DNA of 64,000 nucleotides. Source: Colwellia sp. MB02u-6 (GTDB lineage Bacteria; Pseudomonadota; Gammaproteobacteria; Enterobacterales; Alteromonadaceae). How positions within the stretch are numbered: position 1 is the stretch's first letter; each line of letters begins with the position of its first letter. This document shows positions 7,112 to 15,454 of the stretch, piece after piece. The position numbers and the translations under genes are program-made. The notes below the pieces were generated by a model. That model was not told the origin of the DNA. It searched no databases and saw nothing but the letters and a program-made list of their open reading frames with translations. Location: assembly GCF_014077095.1 (NCBI RefSeq), contig NZ_JACGVG010000035.1:248001-312000 (forward strand). Reading direction: 5' to 3'.

Positions 7112-7315
7112 ATGATTTTGTTATTCAGCGGAGTGTTAAGCGTTGTTTTTTCTTTGTTTTTTTATTGCCAGGCAATCAGCAGTGGCTTAGGTATAAAGCG
7201 ATGGGCAATAGCTGGTTTAATGTTTGGTCCTTTTGTTTGGCCAATGTTTTGTATGAAAAAACGTGTAAAGATATACCAGCGTTTTGGTTTTGATTGCTTG
7301 TTATTTTCAGCGTAA
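7112..7315 (+). CDS. small two-helix membrane protein, unknown function
   Basis: A 67-aa hydrophobic protein. A first membrane helix covers about residues 2-20 and a second about 31-47, with the KR pair between them and the C-terminal KKR cluster (about 49-51) likely cytoplasmic. The SxKRWAIAGLxFGPFVWPMF core resembles small uncharacterised proteins I associate with Alteromonadales, but I cannot name a family. GTGAG lies upstream of the ATG at a workable distance. It is alone between the fadIJ terminator and a convergent peptide operon. It could be a chance hydrophobic frame, though the clean helix-loop-helix layout argues against that. Confidence 0.55.
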   Translation: MILLFSGVLSVVFSLFFYCQAISSGLGIKRWAIAGLMFGPFVWPMFCMKKRVKIYQRFGFDCLLFSA

Positions 7316-7326
7316 TAAAAAAATAT

Positions 7327-7417
7327 AGCCTGTTTTAATATCAGTACTTTTAATTTATAAAGACGCTAACTTCCTTGTAGCGTAGTGTCTAATAATCTTT
7401 ATAAATATCAACAGGCT
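7327..7417 (-). terminator. long nested inverted repeat ending in a T-run: terminator of the peptide operon
   Basis: Three nested pairs of perfect arms: AGCCTGTT 7327-7334 with AACAGGCT 7410-7417; ATTTATAAAGA 7353-7363 with TCTTTATAAAT 7396-7406; ACGCTA 7363-7368 with TAGCGT 7378-7383. Read on the minus strand the structure ends in TATATTTTTTT, so it can terminate the peptide operon. It is much longer than an ordinary terminator. Confidence 0.6.
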
Positions 7418-7427
7418 TTATAAGGTC

Positions 7428-7532
7428 TTAATTCCACCAAGTACTTGCAGGCATTTCTTTTATTTCGATGCTTGCCGCAATAGCATTTTCAGTCTTCGCA
7501 GTCATAAATAATGATTTAATTAAATTAATCAT
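7428..7532 (-). CDS. 34-aa peptide gene, second gene of a sigma-54-type peptide operon
   Basis: A very short gene on the minus strand: ATG at 7532, TAA at 7428-7430, 34 aa. The ribosome binding site is strong, GGAGG five bases before ATG (GGAGGCTTTATG), which is the main reason to call it real. The product starts MINLIKSLFM, a short basic and hydrophobic head, and ends in the aromatic STWWN. It starts 8 bases after the stop of the 47-aa gene, so the two form an operon. I do not recognise the family. The size, possible leader-like N-terminus and two adjacent Trp would suit a secreted or modified peptide, but no processing enzyme is encoded nearby. Confidence 0.6.
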   Translation of the reverse strand: MINLIKSLFMTAKTENAIAASIEIKEMPASTWWN

Positions 7533-7540
7533 AAAGCCTC

Positions 7541-7684
7541 CTAAATGCTAATTTCGTTACGGCTAGTATCGATACGAACTTCGTTTTTACGAGTTCCAAC
7601 TTCTTCGATTATAAAAGCTTCATTGTTTATATCTGCTGCTGGAGTTGCTGACATTGCAAAAGAAAGAATTAGTGAACTAAACAT
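7541..7684 (-). CDS. 47-aa peptide gene, first gene of a sigma-54-type peptide operon
   Basis: Short minus-strand gene: ATG at 7684, TAG at 7541-7543, 47 aa. AAGGA precedes the ATG at a good distance (AAGGAATACCATG). The N-terminus MFSSLILSFAMSATPAAD is hydrophobic and ends in small residues, so it resembles a weak signal peptide with a possible cut after ATPA. The rest is charged (EEVGTRKNEVRIDTSRNE). A near-consensus sigma-54 promoter lies 47 bases upstream. No family recognised. Together with the 34-aa gene it lies downstream of the large GGDEF/EAL sensor on the same strand, which may or may not be functionally linked. Confidence 0.6.
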   Translation of the reverse strand: MFSSLILSFAMSATPAADINNEAFIIEEVGTRKNEVRIDTSRNEISI

Positions 7685-7730
7685 GGTATTCCTTATTGTT
7701 ATTAAATTAAATTAAAGTCAATAAGAGTAA

Positions 7731-7747
7731 AGCGAAAATCGTGCCAA
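7731..7747 (-). promoter_or_regulatory. sigma-54 (RpoN) promoter of the peptide operon
   Basis: Minus strand reads TTGGCACGATTTTCGCT. The GG (-24) and GC (-12) elements are separated by exactly ten bases, as required for sigma-54; the only departure from TTGGCACG-N4-TTGCW is C for T in the -12 box. The start point would fall near 7720, giving a leader of about 36 bases before the 47-aa gene. Sigma-54 promoters need an enhancer-binding activator; none is encoded in this window. Confidence 0.7.
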
Positions 7748-7826: not shown

Positions 7827-10800
7827 TTAAATGTTATTTTTTCCAAATAAAGTGGATTTATTGGCAATTTGAAAAGAAAGCAGATATTTTTGGAAGTCAC
7901 CTTTAGGTAGCGGTTTACTATAAAGGTAGCCTTGTAATTGCTCGCAACGTAAGCCAGATAAAAAACTCAATTGCTGATTGGTTTCAACGCCTTCTGCGAC
8001 CACTTGCATACCTAAGTTATGTGCGATGGTCACTATTGTGGCCACCATATTCCTTCCTTGCTCTGAGGTTTCAATATCATCAACAAAGGCTTTGTCTATT
8101 TTTAACGTATTTAAGGGGAATTTTTTCAAATAAGCTAGTGAAGAATAACCCGTGCCAAAATCGTCCAGTGATAAATGGATACCCAGCGCACGAATTTGTA
8201 ACATAGTATCAATCGCTTTTTGGGGTGAGTCCATCACCGTGCCTTCAGTTATTTCTAGCTCAAGATATTTTGCCAGTAAGCCACTTTCTTTTAACGTGTC
8301 AGCAATCATTGCCACCAAATTTGGTTGGGTAAACTGCACTGCTGAAAGGTTAACTGCCACACGTCCGTCAAAAAGTCCTGTATCGACCCATTTTTTAGTG
8401 GCAAAGCATGCTTTGCGTAAAACTATCTCACCAATATCTATAATTTGCCCTGTTTCTTCTGATACAGGGATAAAGACCACTGGGCTTACTATGCCTTTAT
8501 TTGGTGTTTCAAAGCGAACTAAGGCCTCCATACCTGCTATCTTACCGGTAGCAATCTCGATTTTTGGTTGATAAAAAACCGAAAATAAATCCTCCTTTAA
8601 TCCGTGTCGAATTAAGCTTTCTATTTGCAGGCGTTTAACGGCGGTTTTATTCATTGAGTCGCTGAAAAATTGGTATTTATTACCCCCCGTGTTCTTCGCA
8701 TGGTACATGGCCGTATCGGCATTTTTAAGGAGCTCCTGTGGACTCGCGCCATCTTCAGGATAAATTACGATGCCAACGCTACTATAAAGCACAATTTCTT
8801 GACTTTTAAGTCTAAGCGGTAGTGCAATAGATTTTAAAACTTCTTTGGCGATGTGGGTGATGGTATGAAGATCATTGGTGTTCTTAACAATTATACTAAA
8901 TTCATCGCCACCTAAACGATAAACCGTATCTTGATTTCGCCCAAGAATTTTAATGCGTTCGGCCACTTTGCATAGTAAAACATCGCCGACTTCATGTCCT
9001 AATGAGTCATTAACTTTTTTAAAGTTATCTAAATCAAATACCAGTAAGGCATGTGGGACTTTACTGCTAACTAATTTTTGTTGATTGGCTTGAAAATAAG
9101 CACGATTCGGCAACCCAGTTAGGGTGTCGGTATTGGCAAGTTTTCTTAATTCTGCTTCTGTTTGCTTGCGCTTGGTTATATCGGAGAAAACACCAACAAA
9201 GTGCGATATATTAGCACTTTCGTCACGAATTATATCGATATTAAAGTCAGTTGAATAAATCTCGCCATTGTCACGTTTGCTTTTTATTTCACCGTGCCAA
9301 CTACCTTTGGTCATTAAATGCTGTTTAACCTTTTGATTAAAGCTATCAGGATATTGTTCAAAATTAAGTAAAGTCCCCTGCATTTGTAACTTATTTTTGC
9401 CGGTTATATTTTGAAATGCTTTATTGATATCTACGACAGTAAATTGACGGTCATAAATAACAATCGCGTCTGAAATATTCTCGATACATTTAGCAAAAAG
9501 TTTTAAACGCTCATCGGCGCGCTTAATTTGACTAATATCTTTTAAGGTCCCTGTCATTCGGCTGGGTTTGTTTTTTTCATCTCGTTCAACAATTTTTCCA
9601 CGGTCGAGCACCCAGATCCATTTTTCGTTTTTATCTTTAACACGATAGGTCGCTTCAAAGTGTTTACTACTGTCTTCCATGTGCTGGTTCAAAGCTTCTC
9701 GTACTCGTGGGATGTCGTGTTGGTGGATGTTGGTTTCATCTTTGCCGACATTACGTTTGCCATCTTGCGGGAATTCTAAAATTCCCCATATATTTGAGCG
9801 AAATATTTTTCCGCTCTTCATGTTCCAATCCCACATTTCATCACCGCTGCCCCAAAGGGATAACTTAAGGCGTTCCTCACTTAACTTTATTTGAAGGTGA
9901 TAAAGGCGCTTATGGCGTATCTGTTGCAATATGTAGGTGAAGATTAATAGTGCAATAAGGCTATAGAAAAATACGGCGCTAGTTGACAGCCACCATGGAG
10001 GCATTATGGTGATATTGAGCGTTTTTATTGCACTTTCTTGTTTGTTTTGTAAATCGTAGGCCTGCACTTCAAAAGTATAATCGCCAGAGTTTAAATTAGT
10101 GTAAGTTGCTCTTTGATTATTTTTACCAGAATCTATCCATTTATCTTCTAATCCAATTAAACGGTAACGGTAATTTAGCTGGTTCGGTAACTTTGTATTA
10201 GGGGTTATAAATTCAATGCTAAATTGGGACTGTGTGTGCTTCAACATAAGAGTAGTTAAATGATTAGGGGATTTTTCTAAATAAAATTCTTTATCGGTTA
10301 TATTAGAGTGTAAAGTGCTCGCAACAGGAACCGCTTTGTTCGCTATGAGTATATTAGAAATAGTGGGAGTAGGTGTCAGTTGGCCAATGTGAGAAATCTC
10401 TTGAGGAATGAAGGTATGGAAACCATTTATTCCTCCAAAAAAGATTGTATCAGCAGAAGTTCGTAAAGAGCTGTCACTAATATACTCATTGTCACTTAAT
10501 AGCATATCTTTATTGAAAGATTTTACTATGTTATTTTTAGGATCTACTGAGTTAATGCCGATATTCGTTGAAAGCCAACCTTTACCGGTAGAATCAATTA
10601 CTATGTCCGCAATGAAATTATTACTAAGACCATTTTTTTCGTTAAACAACAAATTAGTATTATTTTTTTTGTTTATTAATGCTAAACCGTTGAGATGTGA
10701 ACCTAACCAAATCCATTCATTGGACAATGAAATAGTAGATATATCCCCAAATACGTTACTATTTGATAGTAAATATAAATTATTTGAAAAATCAAGTTTT

Positions 10801-12416
10801 GATACATTAAAGGTTAATATTTCACCTCTGCTTGTGGAGAGCCATATTGTGTTGTCATTGTCGTATTTTAAGGTAGTAAATAGGCTGCCACTCTCTTGTT
10901 CATATATTTCAAATTGATTGGTTTTAGTATCAAAAGATGTCAATTGCATTTCGTTATCAATAAACCAAATTTTATTTTCTATCAAAAATAATTTACTGTA
11001 TTCGGTATGAGATAAGTTGAGTCCCCATGCCTTATTTTCAATTAATGTTAAAGTCTTAGTATCAAAGTAATAAAGACTTCCTGGTTTATTAGGACTTTTC
11101 GCTTCAGCTTGTAACCATAAATTATCTTGATCGTCTATCATTAAGTGAGAAATAGCTGTCTTATTGCCAATTCTCAGATGAACTATTTTTTCATCTGAGT
11201 TTGTGTAGCTTAGTTTTCCATTATTTGTTGCAAACCAGATCCTTCCATCTTTAGATTCAGCAAACGCATATACGGCGCTAGGTGTTTCATCATAGCTAAA
11301 TAAACCATGTCTAATTTTTAACTGTAAACTGTTAAAGGTATTGATGCCATTTCCGACAGTTCCGATCCAAATATTATCCGCACTGTCTTTAAATAATTTT
11401 AATATATAGTTATTTGAAATAGCACTTTTATGCTGCACAGTTTGATAAGCATCTATATCTCCAGAGAGCAAGTTGATAATATTTAGCCCATTTAGCGTGC
11501 CAAGCCAAACCATCGATTCATCTAATAATGCGATAGACCTCACATTATTAGATAATAATTTATCATCTATATTTTCTGAGTCAGCGGAGTAATGCTTTTT
11601 AATTTTGTAATCTTGAGAAACAACATACAAGCCATTATCTGTAGCTAACCAATATTGATTATCGATAGTCTTTAGGTCATAAAGGCTCGTAGCGTTAAGT
11701 GATAAATCCCACTTGTTTTCACCAGATAGCGGCACTAAAAATGTCAGTGTACTGTTAGCTAAATATATACCCTTATCAAAAGTACCAAGCCAATAATTAC
11801 CTTTTTCATCTTGAAAAATAGTTTTAATTTCTTTTAAGGCAGTATCAAATCCACGAATTCGTATCCGAGAGAAATTTTTATTCTCGTTGTCGAATTTATG
11901 TAGACCTTCTTTAGTAGATATCAAAATGTCATTTTGTTTATCTTGGTAAATATCCCAAATTTCATTATCTTTTAGAGAGTTACTTTCGTTAGTTTGATTG
12001 AGAAAGTTATCAAAATTATCTAATGATTCGTTATATCGGCTTAGTCCTTTATTTGTACCAACCCAGAGTACATTTTTGCTATCGATAAAGATTTTTCTAA
12101 TAAAGTTATTAGCAATTGATTTATTATCGGTACTGTCGTGACGATAATAAACAAAGTTTTTACCATCGTAACGATTTAAACCGTCTTGTGTAGCTATCCA
12201 TATAAAGCCATTGTTATCTTGAGTTATATCGTAAACATAGCTCTGTGATAAACCTTCTGCAATTGAGATGCGTTCAAACTTCAGTGGGGGGTTATTAATA
12301 TTATTTTCTGACGCTAGACTTTTGCCATAAGGGTATAGGAGAGTTACTAGAGCCAAGACAGCAAGCGTTAGATAAAATTGAGAAATTAATTTTTTTTTGA
12401 AAAAAAGCAAAAGCAC
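7827..12416 (-). CDS. membrane sensor with beta-propeller, Y_Y_Y, two PAS, GGDEF and EAL domains
   Basis: A 1529-aa c-di-GMP signalling protein. A signal sequence (about 1-36) is followed by a large periplasmic sensor of repeated two-component propeller units (for example NGFIWIATQDGLNRYDG, KNVLWVGTNKGLSRY, GNYWLGTFDKGIY), a Y_Y_Y domain before about residue 800, a membrane helix at about 807-830, then two PAS domains. GGDEF (1169-1173) is intact, with an RNQD inhibitory I-site five residues before it. The EAL domain (EAL at 1297-1299, DDFGTGYSSL, VVAEGVE) keeps its catalytic-type motifs. It may therefore both make and break c-di-GMP. Start is GTG 12416 with AAGGG upstream. The ligand of the propeller is unknown; related sensors often detect polysaccharide breakdown products. 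Confidence 0.93.
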   Translation of the reverse strand: MLLLFFKKKLISQFYLTLAVLALVTLLYPYGKSLASENNINNPPLKFERISIAEGLSQSYVYDITQDNNGFIWIATQDGLNRYDGKNFVYYRHDSTDNKSIANNFIRKIFIDSKNVLWVGTNKGLSRYNESLDNFDNFLNQTNESNSLKDNEIWDIYQDKQNDILISTKEGLHKFDNENKNFSRIRIRGFDTALKEIKTIFQDEKGNYWLGTFDKGIYLANSTLTFLVPLSGENKWDLSLNATSLYDLKTIDNQYWLATDNGLYVVSQDYKIKKHYSADSENIDDKLLSNNVRSIALLDESMVWLGTLNGLNIINLLSGDIDAYQTVQHKSAISNNYILKLFKDSADNIWIGTVGNGINTFNSLQLKIRHGLFSYDETPSAVYAFAESKDGRIWFATNNGKLSYTNSDEKIVHLRIGNKTAISHLMIDDQDNLWLQAEAKSPNKPGSLYYFDTKTLTLIENKAWGLNLSHTEYSKLFLIENKIWFIDNEMQLTSFDTKTNQFEIYEQESGSLFTTLKYDNDNTIWLSTSRGEILTFNVSKLDFSNNLYLLSNSNVFGDISTISLSNEWIWLGSHLNGLALINKKNNTNLLFNEKNGLSNNFIADIVIDSTGKGWLSTNIGINSVDPKNNIVKSFNKDMLLSDNEYISDSSLRTSADTIFFGGINGFHTFIPQEISHIGQLTPTPTISNILIANKAVPVASTLHSNITDKEFYLEKSPNHLTTLMLKHTQSQFSIEFITPNTKLPNQLNYRYRLIGLEDKWIDSGKNNQRATYTNLNSGDYTFEVQAYDLQNKQESAIKTLNITIMPPWWLSTSAVFFYSLIALLIFTYILQQIRHKRLYHLQIKLSEERLKLSLWGSGDEMWDWNMKSGKIFRSNIWGILEFPQDGKRNVGKDETNIHQHDIPRVREALNQHMEDSSKHFEATYRVKDKNEKWIWVLDRGKIVERDEKNKPSRMTGTLKDISQIKRADERLKLFAKCIENISDAIVIYDRQFTVVDINKAFQNITGKNKLQMQGTLLNFEQYPDSFNQKVKQHLMTKGSWHGEIKSKRDNGEIYSTDFNIDIIRDESANISHFVGVFSDITKRKQTEAELRKLANTDTLTGLPNRAYFQANQQKLVSSKVPHALLVFDLDNFKKVNDSLGHEVGDVLLCKVAERIKILGRNQDTVYRLGGDEFSIIVKNTNDLHTITHIAKEVLKSIALPLRLKSQEIVLYSSVGIVIYPEDGASPQELLKNADTAMYHAKNTGGNKYQFFSDSMNKTAVKRLQIESLIRHGLKEDLFSVFYQPKIEIATGKIAGMEALVRFETPNKGIVSPVVFIPVSEETGQIIDIGEIVLRKACFATKKWVDTGLFDGRVAVNLSAVQFTQPNLVAMIADTLKESGLLAKYLELEITEGTVMDSPQKAIDTMLQIRALGIHLSLDDFGTGYSSLAYLKKFPLNTLKIDKAFVDDIETSEQGRNMVATIVTIAHNLGMQVVAEGVETNQQLSFLSGLRCEQLQGYLYSKPLPKGDFQKYLLSFQIANKSTLFGKNNI

Positions 12417-12622: not shown

Positions 12623-15454
12623 TTAATATTTTCTTTGACATTTTTTTAATAGAAATTCGATATTGTCATTAATGGTTACATTCTTGGTTATTTTATCTAA
12701 CTGTATTTTGTTTTCATAACTTAATAACGACAAGCGATCTTTTATCTCTGTGCCATTAAAATATTGTTGGAGAAAGTTAGCTACATTATCTATTGAGATA
12801 GTTTTAATCATTAAAATGAGTTTTTGCTTTTGGTCAAAAGAGGCTTCTTTATTACAAATAGCGGCCCAATAACGCTGACTTTTAATTCTCAAGTTTGTAT
12901 CTTTTTCTTGTAACTGACTTGCTAGGCCAAATCGTAAATGCTGCCAGTGCTCATCAGGCAAGTTTGTAATGTAATGATTTGTTCGAGCGATAAAGTCATT
13001 CATGGCTTCTGTTAATGTTACTGAGTCGGTGTGCGGCGATTGAATATAAAAAGCAATGCCAGGGTAGCAATTAATCGGTATAAAACCGACACCAACCAAA
13101 TAGCCATATTGTTTTTCTGTGCGCATTTCTTGGAAGAAAATAGGTGATAATAATTGATTAGTTAACATGGTTAACGCTATTGTGCGCAAATCTTTATTTG
13201 GCATGGGGTAGTAGAGTAAAGCGGCGTGATCATGCTCTGGTAACTCCACCGGTAGTGTCAATGGGCCGACGCCTTGAAGATCTATACATGGAATGTCAAC
13301 TTGGTTATTTTGAGATAACTTGCCATCAAAAACTTGTTTAACCTTGATAATAATATGGTCAGCAGATTGTCTGGACCAATTGCCATGAATGAGTAAATTG
13401 ACCGCGGTTTTTTCAAAGATATGGGCTACAAAATTTGTAAACGTTTGAAACGATATTTCCCCTAGGGCATTAATTAAACTTTGGTTACTGGGGCTTTTGG
13501 GTTGCATTGTGGCGCTTAGCTTGGCAAATAACTGTGAAATTGATTTACTGTTTTCTGCGTTTTTCCAGTGACTGAGCAGTTCTTGCTTAAATAATTCGAA
13601 TTTATTAGGGCAAAATTTTCCTTGCATTAAACTTGCTAACAATAGCGGCAATAATTTTTCTTGTTTTGTACTAATGCCTGATAATTTTAGCGTTAGCCCA
13701 CTCTGATGAGAATATAGGTGATAGTGAATGCCCGCTAATTCCGCGTTATAATGTTCCTCAATAACAGCGTCGCTGTAAAGGTCAATAAATAAACGTGTCA
13801 TTGCTATCGTGCTAGCACTTTCTATTACTGCTGGAGAGTCTATAGAGAGATAGATATAGCCTTTAGGGGTATTAAAACTAGTGTCATGTTTAAACCAAAC
13901 ATTTAAACCATTTTGCTGACAAATATTTGTGGGCGGTGTCAGCGGGCTATTTTCTGTATCATCATTTTTGATCAGCTCAGGCCAGGACACTATATAAGGG
14001 TTTTTGCTGGGTAAAAAAAGCTCGTTTATGTTGGGGGCATTTTGCCACTGCTCAATTTCCTCGGGTTTAATATCGTTGACCGAGTAGGGAACTTGATACC
14101 ATTTACTGGTGTTGATATGGGGCTGTTGAGGGATATTTTTATCGATAGAAATAATGCGAATATTAGTCGCAACCATTAAGCCAAGTAAGGTATTTAGTGT
14201 TGCTTGATTTTGACCTTCCATAACGTAATCACCGAAAATGTAATCTTGTTCTGGATAATGTTGCATATTGATCACAAGTTGGCTGACAGAGTTCAGAGGT
14301 GATAGTTTTTCCTGGTAAGAAAATGATAACTCAGCTAAGGCTTTTTTCTCTTGATAATATTGTTGATTAATTGGCGCTTTTTTAAGTAAATTTAGATATG
14401 AAAATACGATACTGACAATGGTAGTGATGTGCTTTTTACCTAATTCAGAAAGTGAGATGCTAATATTGAAATCTTTAAAATTAGAGCCATTTATGCCTGA
14501 GCCAGCCGTTAAAGCCAGCGCCCATTGTCTACTTTTTAACAATGACAAAATGCTACCCGGACCTTCATGACCAATTAAGTAGGCCAGAATAGCTTCAGGC
14601 TTTTGACGATAAAATTGATCAATACTTGGCATGGCAAAGCTAATGATCAGTTGTTGATCGTTTTTAACTGGCTGCACTGTGATCAATTTTTGTTGATGCT
14701 GGGCCAAGTAAAGGGGCTCACTAATTTTTGTTTTAGCAATGCCATTAGTCTTAATCTTGGAAAAGTGTTCATTGGCTAAATTTTCTAATTCGTTGAGGGT
14801 TTGTGGACCTTCTAATACTAAGGTCATAAAATGCGCTTGATAATGCTTTTGAAAAAACGCACACAACTCATCGCGTAAATTGTAACCGCTTTTATCTGCT
14901 AAGGTCTTACTGCTACCGACAGAAAACTTTGCAAAAGGGTGAGCTTGATTAATCGTTTCTTTGTGAACGTCGTAAAGGCGTCGAATATCGTCTTTAAGCT
15001 TGAGTTTGAATTCGGCGTCAATGTTCTTACGTTCTTTGTGAACAAATTCTTCAGATAATAACGGCATAGTAAAAAACTCGCCAAAACGTGTTATTGCCGC
15101 ACTAAAATGTTGATAACCTATATCAAAGAAAAAACAGGTATGCTCTGTTGCTGTCCAAGCGTTATTACTGCCACCATGTTGATTAATAAATTTCTGATAT
15201 TCACTGCCATCAGGAAAGTTTTTGGTGCCAAGAAATAGCATGTGCTCAAGAAAATGAGCAAGTCCCTGTCGATGATGAGGATCATCAAAATGTCCCACGT
15301 TAACGGCTAAAGCAGCAGCAGATTTATTTGATTCAGGGTTATGGATCAACAAAGCTCTTAAGCCATTGCCTAAAACAATGGTTTGATAGTGTTTAGCGTC
15401 ATTTGGGCTTTGTTTCACAGTTACTCCCGCACAATTTATGCTGTAGCTCGGCAT
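12623..15454 (-). CDS. M16 family (insulinase/protease III-like) zinc metallopeptidase
   Basis: A 943-aa peptidase. The inverted zinc motif HFLEH is at residues 67-71 and the third ligand is E148 in NIDAEF, 77 residues after the second His, as in insulinase and E. coli protease III. The order is catalytic M16 domain, inactive M16 repeats and a C-terminal domain with the QMRTEKQYGYLVGVGF-like region (here EMRTEKQYGYLVG) that contacts substrate in this family. No clear signal peptide is present, so it may be cytoplasmic, unlike protease III. It probably degrades small peptides. It diverges from sixA and is followed on the same strand by the sensor gene, with about 200 bases between. Confidence 0.92.
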   Translation of the reverse strand: MPSYSINCAGVTVKQSPNDAKHYQTIVLGNGLRALLIHNPESNKSAAALAVNVGHFDDPHHRQGLAHFLEHMLFLGTKNFPDGSEYQKFINQHGGSNNAWTATEHTCFFFDIGYQHFSAAITRFGEFFTMPLLSEEFVHKERKNIDAEFKLKLKDDIRRLYDVHKETINQAHPFAKFSVGSSKTLADKSGYNLRDELCAFFQKHYQAHFMTLVLEGPQTLNELENLANEHFSKIKTNGIAKTKISEPLYLAQHQQKLITVQPVKNDQQLIISFAMPSIDQFYRQKPEAILAYLIGHEGPGSILSLLKSRQWALALTAGSGINGSNFKDFNISISLSELGKKHITTIVSIVFSYLNLLKKAPINQQYYQEKKALAELSFSYQEKLSPLNSVSQLVINMQHYPEQDYIFGDYVMEGQNQATLNTLLGLMVATNIRIISIDKNIPQQPHINTSKWYQVPYSVNDIKPEEIEQWQNAPNINELFLPSKNPYIVSWPELIKNDDTENSPLTPPTNICQQNGLNVWFKHDTSFNTPKGYIYLSIDSPAVIESASTIAMTRLFIDLYSDAVIEEHYNAELAGIHYHLYSHQSGLTLKLSGISTKQEKLLPLLLASLMQGKFCPNKFELFKQELLSHWKNAENSKSISQLFAKLSATMQPKSPSNQSLINALGEISFQTFTNFVAHIFEKTAVNLLIHGNWSRQSADHIIIKVKQVFDGKLSQNNQVDIPCIDLQGVGPLTLPVELPEHDHAALLYYPMPNKDLRTIALTMLTNQLLSPIFFQEMRTEKQYGYLVGVGFIPINCYPGIAFYIQSPHTDSVTLTEAMNDFIARTNHYITNLPDEHWQHLRFGLASQLQEKDTNLRIKSQRYWAAICNKEASFDQKQKLILMIKTISIDNVANFLQQYFNGTEIKDRLSLLSYENKIQLDKITKNVTINDNIEFLLKKCQRKY

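Follow-up and report, generated by a model that had tools for sequence, protein, structure and literature searches.

A conserved two-gene operon encoding a tandem-repeat peptide precursor accompanies a beta-propeller c-di-GMP sensor in Colwellia and its relatives: a putative ligand and its receptor

What do two very short genes lying directly behind a large c-di-GMP sensor encode, and do they belong with that sensor? We know of no ligand for most periplasmic c-di-GMP sensors, and peptide signalling has been studied mostly in Gram-positive bacteria. The stretch analysed here (the window) comprises 64,000 nucleotides of Colwellia sp. MB02u-6 (positions 248,001 to 312,000 of contig NZ_JACGVG010000035.1). 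A preliminary description of its letters alone had proposed an operon of two peptides under sigma-54 control, the first perhaps exported and received by the sensor. The operon contains the following features.

7747-7730, minus strand: sigma-54 -24/-12 element TTGGCACGATTTTCGCTT, with GG and GC ten bases apart; transcription expected to start near 7720
7541..7684, minus strand: ORF1, a peptide precursor of 47 aa with AAGGA upstream; consists of a leader, an intact core and a degenerate unit
7640..7684, minus strand: signal-like leader MFSSLILSFAMSATP, the best-conserved portion of ORF1
7571..7597, minus strand: core unit GTRKNEVRI, aligning with the GTRRxxVRI units of congeners
7544..7570, minus strand: second, degenerate unit DTSRNEISI, with DTSSNEISI as its counterpart behind three intact cores in the sister species
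7428..7532, minus strand: ORF2, a 34 aa peptide ending in STWWN, with TAGGAGG upstream; begins 8 nt past ORF1
7431..7469, minus strand: near-invariant ORF2 tail IEIKEMPASTWWN (dN/dS 0.019, codons 16-34)

The sequence bears out the two back-to-back reading frames at these positions, the ribosome binding site before each, and the STWWN end of ORF2, whose tail is almost invariant in the genus. Both frames are real coding genes. Over 17 species of the genus, the window's species included, dN/dS is 0.085 for ORF2 and 0.213 for codons 1-15 of ORF1, and stops interrupt both alternative frames of ORF2 in all 17. A search with ORF1 found homologues in 17/17 genomes of the genus. Amino-acid conservation in relatives, on which the preliminary description had staked its proposal, was likewise found: ORF2 has matches (E <= 0.01) in 78 of 345 family genomes and 19 of 52 genera, the weakest few being doubtful (those of G270 and G144 and the second in G117 have no adjoining ORF1, and 18 genera remain). 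Weak order-level matches (E 0.009-0.05) were rejected, and outside the family only G702 was confirmed at its match. Searches against Pfam gave nothing above cut-off for the window's ORF1 or ORF2 peptide, NCBIfam nothing above cut-off for these two, two relatives' ORF1 and one relative's ORF2, and Rfam no match in the 64-kb window.

Pairs of ORF1 and ORF2 were parsed at 69 loci, which include ten genomes counted twice and so represent 59 distinct genomes; some further pairs visible in relatives' loci were not parsed into this set. ORF2 starts 8-9 nt past ORF1 in 33/59 distinct pairs. Many distant versions of ORF2 end in WW plus one residue, an ending lost in some genera, and the ORF2 profile fails to detect ORF2 in G040, G049 and G437, where the gene emerged only on inspection of the locus. 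In 12 genera having sensor, promoter and ORF1, no ORF2 was seen, which refutes the rule that absence of ORF2 means absence of the system. In genus g76, two tandem ORF2 matches follow the precursor in 7 of 11 matched genomes (L154, L157, L159, L167, L168, L170, L172).

The near-consensus sigma-54 promoter of the preliminary description was verified on the sequence, and it recurs in relatives. Among 59 distinct pairs taken from other genomes, 55 have an element of the form TGG[CT]A-N8-GC 40-100 nt upstream; after mononucleotide shuffling, 0.0009 of 80-nt stretches contain such a match. The invariance of GG and GC among these 55 follows by construction from the search pattern; the position of the element does not. 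The four pairs from which it is absent all belong to one genus (a member is named Thalassomonas). The -24 GG and -12 GC at fixed spacing, together with an rpoN gene for sigma-54 in the window's genome (G000), mark this as a predicted sigma-54 promoter, and its conservation leads us to infer that ORF1 and ORF2 are transcribed by sigma-54 RNA polymerase.

The two-peptide operon was thus borne out, but the single window could not reveal that ORF1 is normally a tandem-repeat precursor. ORF1 of pair-bearing family relatives is mostly 60-169 aa long, with a conserved MLSSLILSLxMS-like start followed by near-identical cores that are contiguous or split by acidic spacers. Examples of these cores are GTRRGQVRI, GTRPGTVRI, GKSHGKVRI, SQKRRESRI, TASNKIRIQP and VNTRIRIKP, and also KPGGVIR and AALPAIKV. 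The window's ORF1 is among the shortest versions, with one intact and one degenerate unit, and that of the sister species, whose core reads GTRRNDIRI, has three intact units and then a degenerate last unit like the window's. In 52 of 59 distinct ORF1 proteins, at most three residues separate a core-like [RK][hydrophobic] from the C terminus. Exact amino-acid repeats occur in 54/59 distinct precursors; they are absent from five, four of them in genus g13, and also from G049. Several genera have a single-unit ORF1, whose product can be 40-50 aa.

In all 54 repeat-bearing precursors, copies identical in amino acids use differing codons. Across 50 precursors the within-precursor pN/pS is 0.040, and 285 of 295 counted units match the commonest unit exactly, a count biased toward identity by skipping units above the allowed mismatches. 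Within precursors of the window's genus pS is 0.368 against a pN of 0.004. The copies are therefore old enough to have lost codon identity, each being held to one peptide. Between congeners the first unit differs at both kinds of site (pS 0.553, pN 0.242; 16 species). A core that is uniform within a genome and changes between species is the pattern expected from matching one receptor. Copies identical in protein yet not in codons, and differing across species, are an evolutionary puzzle in themselves.

Could such repeats simply build something? Short repeats with alternating hydrophobic residues, next to a c-di-GMP enzyme, would suit a structural or matrix protein of the functional-amyloid kind, its production tied to c-di-GMP. 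We consider this highly improbable, as single-unit products of 40-50 aa occur, the units vary across species and hardly within one, and no secretion or nucleation genes recur nearby.

The surroundings of the pair are constant. At 67 of 69 pair loci (57/59 distinct genomes) the gene immediately upstream, on the same strand, is that of the sensor, at a gap of 127-440 nt, and convergent fadJ is the other neighbour in 68 of 69 (58/59). We then judged, in genomes without a confident ORF2 match, the locus downstream of fadJ, loci with no sensor being scanned over 4.5 kb. Sixty regions were reduced to 52 by setting aside the special G307, G317 and G702, the too short G095, G074, G038 and G077, and the ambiguous G075. 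Where the sensor is full or nearly full, the peptide is present in 18/20 genomes; where it is cut down to its cytoplasmic part, in 0/8; and where there is no sensor at the fadJ locus, in 0/24 (Fisher p 4e-12 over the 52 genomes, uncorrected for kinship). Eighteen genomes combine a full sensor with the promoter and an ORF1-like peptide: G129, G131, G105, G063, G151, G154, G024, G029, G034, G070, G076, G082, G086, G096, G040, G049, G437 and G133, the last displaced. The few promoter-like matches in the 32 truncated or sensorless loci sit inside other genes and are attributed to chance.

"No sensor" in this comparison refers to the locus; the genome-wide search covered G116, G077, G092 and G133, and found no sensor match (E <= 1e-130) in the first three and a displaced sensor in G133. 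Counting the 18 ORF2-positive genera and 12 others, sensor and peptide occur in 30 of 47 judged genera of the family (g16, g53, g59, g60 and g72 lie outside the 47, and in g64, one of the 18, the contig starts inside the sensor, leaving its ectodomain out of view). Of nine weaker sensor matches, six distant paralogues were inspected, and the 1.5 kb behind each of them lacks a peptide of this kind. At two loci, L257 (G018) and L267 (G067), the sensor is full or nearly full but no peptide is detectable; these sensors are possibly orphan or eavesdropping receptors.

Is this association more than inherited gene order? The sensor of G133 is found about 11 kb away from fadJ, with promoter and peptide (ending ...AWKPRSVRV) directly behind it. 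Plain ancestral synteny is therefore insufficient as a full explanation, because the peptide follows the moved sensor instead of fadJ. In G307 and G317 the pair and its promoter are still at fadJ, behind what reads by eye as an rRNA-methyltransferase-like gene, and a full sensor is found elsewhere in the genome. G116 and G077, of the same genus, have neither an ORF2 match nor a sensor match (the G077 contig ends about 1.9 kb from fadJ). The suggestion of the preliminary description that the GGDEF/EAL sensor receives the peptide thus gains indirect support from the loci with an ectodomain, as opposed to truncated and sensorless ones, and further from one joint move and joint retention by two genomes in which the genes are apart.

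Several other reading frames around the locus were noted. An M16-family peptidase (pitrilysin/PqqF-like, recognised by eye) lies upstream of the sensor at 12623-15454 on the minus strand. We rejected it as a dedicated processing enzyme, not specifically linked to the system, because it remains beside fadJ in several loci from which sensor and peptide are gone. On the plus strand, 7112-7315 is a convergent 67-aa frame with a GLGxKRWxxAGxxxGPxxWP-like stretch and no Pfam or NCBIfam match; similar sequence was seen by eye beside fadJ in relatives and at the distant G702 locus, and the frame perhaps encodes an undescribed small membrane protein. At G001:C1:3820540-3822734 FadJ is spread over two overlapping frames, a possible frameshift.

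The leader, tandem basic cores and acidic spacers of ORF1, with core sequences varying from species to species, also form the layout of a natural product, and ORF1 might encode a multi-core antimicrobial or modified (RiPP-like) peptide that the sensor regulates or protects against. We regard this as quite unlikely. The flanks, which were searched up to about 9 kb per side in some loci and 1.5-2 kb in most, show no recurring gene for a maturation enzyme, a transporter or immunity; their constant members are the sensor and fadJ. Multi-core RiPP precursors have a cognate maturation enzyme nearby, and here none recurs in those flanks; nor does a curated precursor model match at cut-off (five peptides in NCBIfam, the window's two in Pfam). 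Some cores, such as AALPAIKV, are barely charged, and joint loss with the sensor ectodomain is unexpected of a RiPP.

If the peptide is instead a ligand, the ectodomain is where it should act. The sensor in the window is laid out as follows.

7827..12416, minus strand: sensor of 1529 aa with Reg_prop double propeller, Y_Y_Y, PAS, PAS, GGDEF and EAL domains; proposed receptor
10317..11216, minus strand: sensor residues 401-700, the fastest-evolving part (second propeller); candidate specificity region

By eye the GGDEF and EAL signatures of the sensor (RNQD..GGDEF, EALVR, DDFGTG), which we take to be the catalytic motifs of these domains, look intact. The ectodomain matches Bacteroides BT4663 in sequence (E 2.7e-152) and, in a predicted model of mean pLDDT 89.4, over its full length in fold (TM about 0.8), so that the model would give the sensor a BT4663-like double propeller with Y_Y_Y. 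BT4663 (PDB 4a2l/4a2m), a Reg_prop/Y_Y_Y hybrid two-component sensor of a periplasmic ligand, has an ectodomain of the same family but belongs to a kinase system and, according to the PDB titles, senses heparin and heparan sulphate, whereas the protein studied here has GGDEF-EAL as its output part and is accompanied by a peptide gene. No close paralogue of the sensor (E <= 1e-150) was found in 17/17 congeners. At G265:C44:78603-81008 an 834-aa open frame is 43% identical to sensor residues 13-811, an ectodomain without GGDEF-EAL.

Over 15 congeners, the mean distance is 0.358 for the ectodomain (0.499 for the second propeller), 0.069 for GGDEF-EAL and 0.109 for FadJ. The ectodomain is thus about five times more diverged than GGDEF-EAL, with a maximum at residues 401-700. 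In one control, a Reg_prop kinase compared as one pair from two species, the ectodomain also diverges, but more evenly. We compared core and ectodomain distances by partial Mantel tests on 15 of the 17 species (L070 and L074 were dropped for want of a usable FadJ): r is 0.18 with p 0.04 given FadJ, and 0.17 with p 0.05 given GGDEF-EAL, uncorrected for several tests. PAS and GGDEF-EAL distances show no correlation with core distances in these 15 species. The correlation is weak, and the figures are compatible with co-evolution without proving it.

The co-occurrence with the ectodomain fits equally well an ORF1 product that stays uncut as a periplasmic subunit, its repeats bridging sensors, or reporting export or the state of the envelope, rather than being released as a signal. 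Repeats could cross-link receptors, and several genera have but a single unit. We nevertheless hold this reading to be unlikely: identical copies and the 52 of 59 C termini near a core-like [RK][hydrophobic] suit cleavage into free cores, and a species-specific change of every copy together is less expected of a scaffold.

The system reaches beyond the family. G040, G437 and G049 each belong to a different family, and each combines sensor, promoter and ORF1 with a WW-ending ORF2, which extends the sensor-peptide system to three or more further families of the order. ORF1 of G040 holds 15 copies of LDTQTAALPAIKV-like units, the maximum of tandem core copies among the relatives; that of G437 holds four EQRVIIRYAQQD-like units, and that of G049 has no repeat. 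In G702, of the same family as G040, the contig carrying the sensor breaks off within a precursor that has a classical signal peptide and GSIPWVK/GGIPWIK units. A second contig opens with similar units, and ORF2 and fadJ come after them.

These distant precursors bear on export. The preliminary description had given the first peptide a signal-like head, which is a fair description of the leader; the signal is weak in the window's genus, where the leader is short and uncharged and the N terminus has no positive charge nearby. By eye, classical Sec signals head the ORF1 of L268 (MLRALVIAAAVVASAPALA, then ISKPGG) and of G702. By homology, export of ORF1 in the window's genus is likely, though not secure because its leader is short and uncharged.

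The message also has a conserved 3' region.

7363..7383, minus strand: GGA hairpin acgctaCAAGGAAGTtagcgt, like a high-affinity CsrA/RsmA site; conserved, predicted
7317..7417, minus strand: outer stem AGCCTGTT/AACAGGCT and T-run round the GGA hairpin, by fold; probable operon end

Of the terminator-like structure claimed earlier, the fold retains an outer 8-bp stem (7410-7417 pairing with 7327-7334) and a T-run at 7317-7323, but a simple terminator scan found none behind ORF2 in the window. Behind ORF2, loci of several genera carry GCTACANGGANG(T/G)TAGC or a close form. Of 59 3' regions, 36, among them the window's, have a hairpin with ANGGA in the loop, whereas 100 shuffles average 2.1 such regions and never exceed 6. 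Among 23 distinct sequences, ACA precedes N-GGA in all 23 (the first A belonging to the selected stem), N-GU follows GGA in 17, and the N positions vary. The inner four stem pairs are invariant in the 23, themselves chosen by a paired GGA, and covariation therefore lends the stem no support. The strict form is absent from genera g76, g12, g13, g56 and g70. A laxer scan of 17 loci (ORF2-less genera, other families and G129) gave five matches, one of them (L278) of the ACANGGA type. In L148 and L155 the GGA hairpin sits atop a stem of 14-16 bp, far longer than in other loci.

The CsrA consensus from SELEX, as given in the accessible part of PMC7652899, is of the ACA-N-GGA type in a short stem-loop, and the pattern found here fits it as set out there. 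Our hairpins resemble those of CsrA/RsmA in this and in the N-GU that follows in 17/23, and differ in lying 3' of the final ORF instead of overlapping a ribosome binding site; they are candidate binding sites. The window's genome, G000, has a csrA gene. In many species, a candidate 3' hairpin of CsrA type would link the message to the Csr lifestyle switch.

What might the locus do as a whole? We favour, as probable from the comparisons above, that it encodes an exported multi-copy peptide ligand and a sensor that is its receptor and sets c-di-GMP through periplasmic beta-propellers. Sigma-54 RNA polymerase would transcribe ORF1-ORF2, as the conserved promoter suggests, and the leader would export ORF1. 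The precursor would be cut into copies of a short core, mostly ending in [RK][hydrophobic]; co-occurrence, gene order and evolution point to the adjacent sensor, whose periplasmic double beta-propeller this core would bind. The bound sensor would alter c-di-GMP through its GGDEF and EAL domains. The peptide could be a self-cue in the periplasm of its own cell or, if released, a pheromone. Since each genome keeps to one core and species differ in theirs, it is probably a species-specific signal. Observed directly are two conserved coding genes, repeats locked in amino acids, a conserved promoter, and a peptide that accompanies the full-length sensor. Counting against the ligand-receptor reading are the window's own precursor, with one intact core and a short uncharged leader, the lack of any linked export or processing gene at the loci, the two full or nearly full sensors without a peptide, the 5/59 precursors without an exact repeat and G049 likewise, the weakness of the core-ectodomain co-divergence, the diverging ectodomain of the control kinase pair, the 12 genera with ORF1 in which no ORF2 was seen, and the four pairs lacking the promoter.

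Precursors of yeast alpha-factor and animal neuropeptides consist of a signal leader and near-identical peptide copies with acidic spacers. ORF1 is analogous to these in leader, copies and spacers, but they are eukaryotic, with other processing enzymes and receptors. A second comparison is with the RRNPPA systems. In the Bacillales members (Rap-Phr, NprR-NprX, PlcR-PapR), according to the accessible part of PMC9765709, the receptor gene is directly followed by a small Sec-exported propeptide, the mature peptide is usually C-terminal, and some propeptides hold up to 6 identical copies. RRNPPA of Firmicutes (including AimR-AimP) share with our loci a propeptide gene directly downstream of the receptor (67/69 loci here). 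Their receptors, however, are cytoplasmic TPR proteins, and the protein adjacent here is of Reg_prop/Y_Y_Y/PAS/GGDEF/EAL type; ours would be a Gram-negative system with a membrane beta-propeller c-di-GMP enzyme, a sigma-54-type promoter and up to 15 copies. By analogy, the logic resembles that of the multi-copy pheromone propeptides of RRNPPA systems (PMC9765709), but the parts are unrelated.

Taken as a molecular system, it fits none of the known families; under a broad heading of "peptide signalling" it would count as a novel form. A literature search, with subscription journals mostly outside its reach, found no description of such a peptide-sensor system. Tentatively, it could represent an undescribed class of Gram-negative peptide signalling, in which a sigma-54 precursor would supply many copies of a species-specific "pherotype" of 8-13 aa to a periplasmic beta-propeller controlling c-di-GMP, the two co-diverging in marine gammaproteobacteria, with the message tied to CsrA.

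If the ligand-receptor reading is true, a large class of sensors would have a genetically encoded ligand, in 30 of the 47 judged genera of the family. Since every genome spells out its own peptide and the natural species variants serve as built-in controls, the hypothesis is unusually testable.
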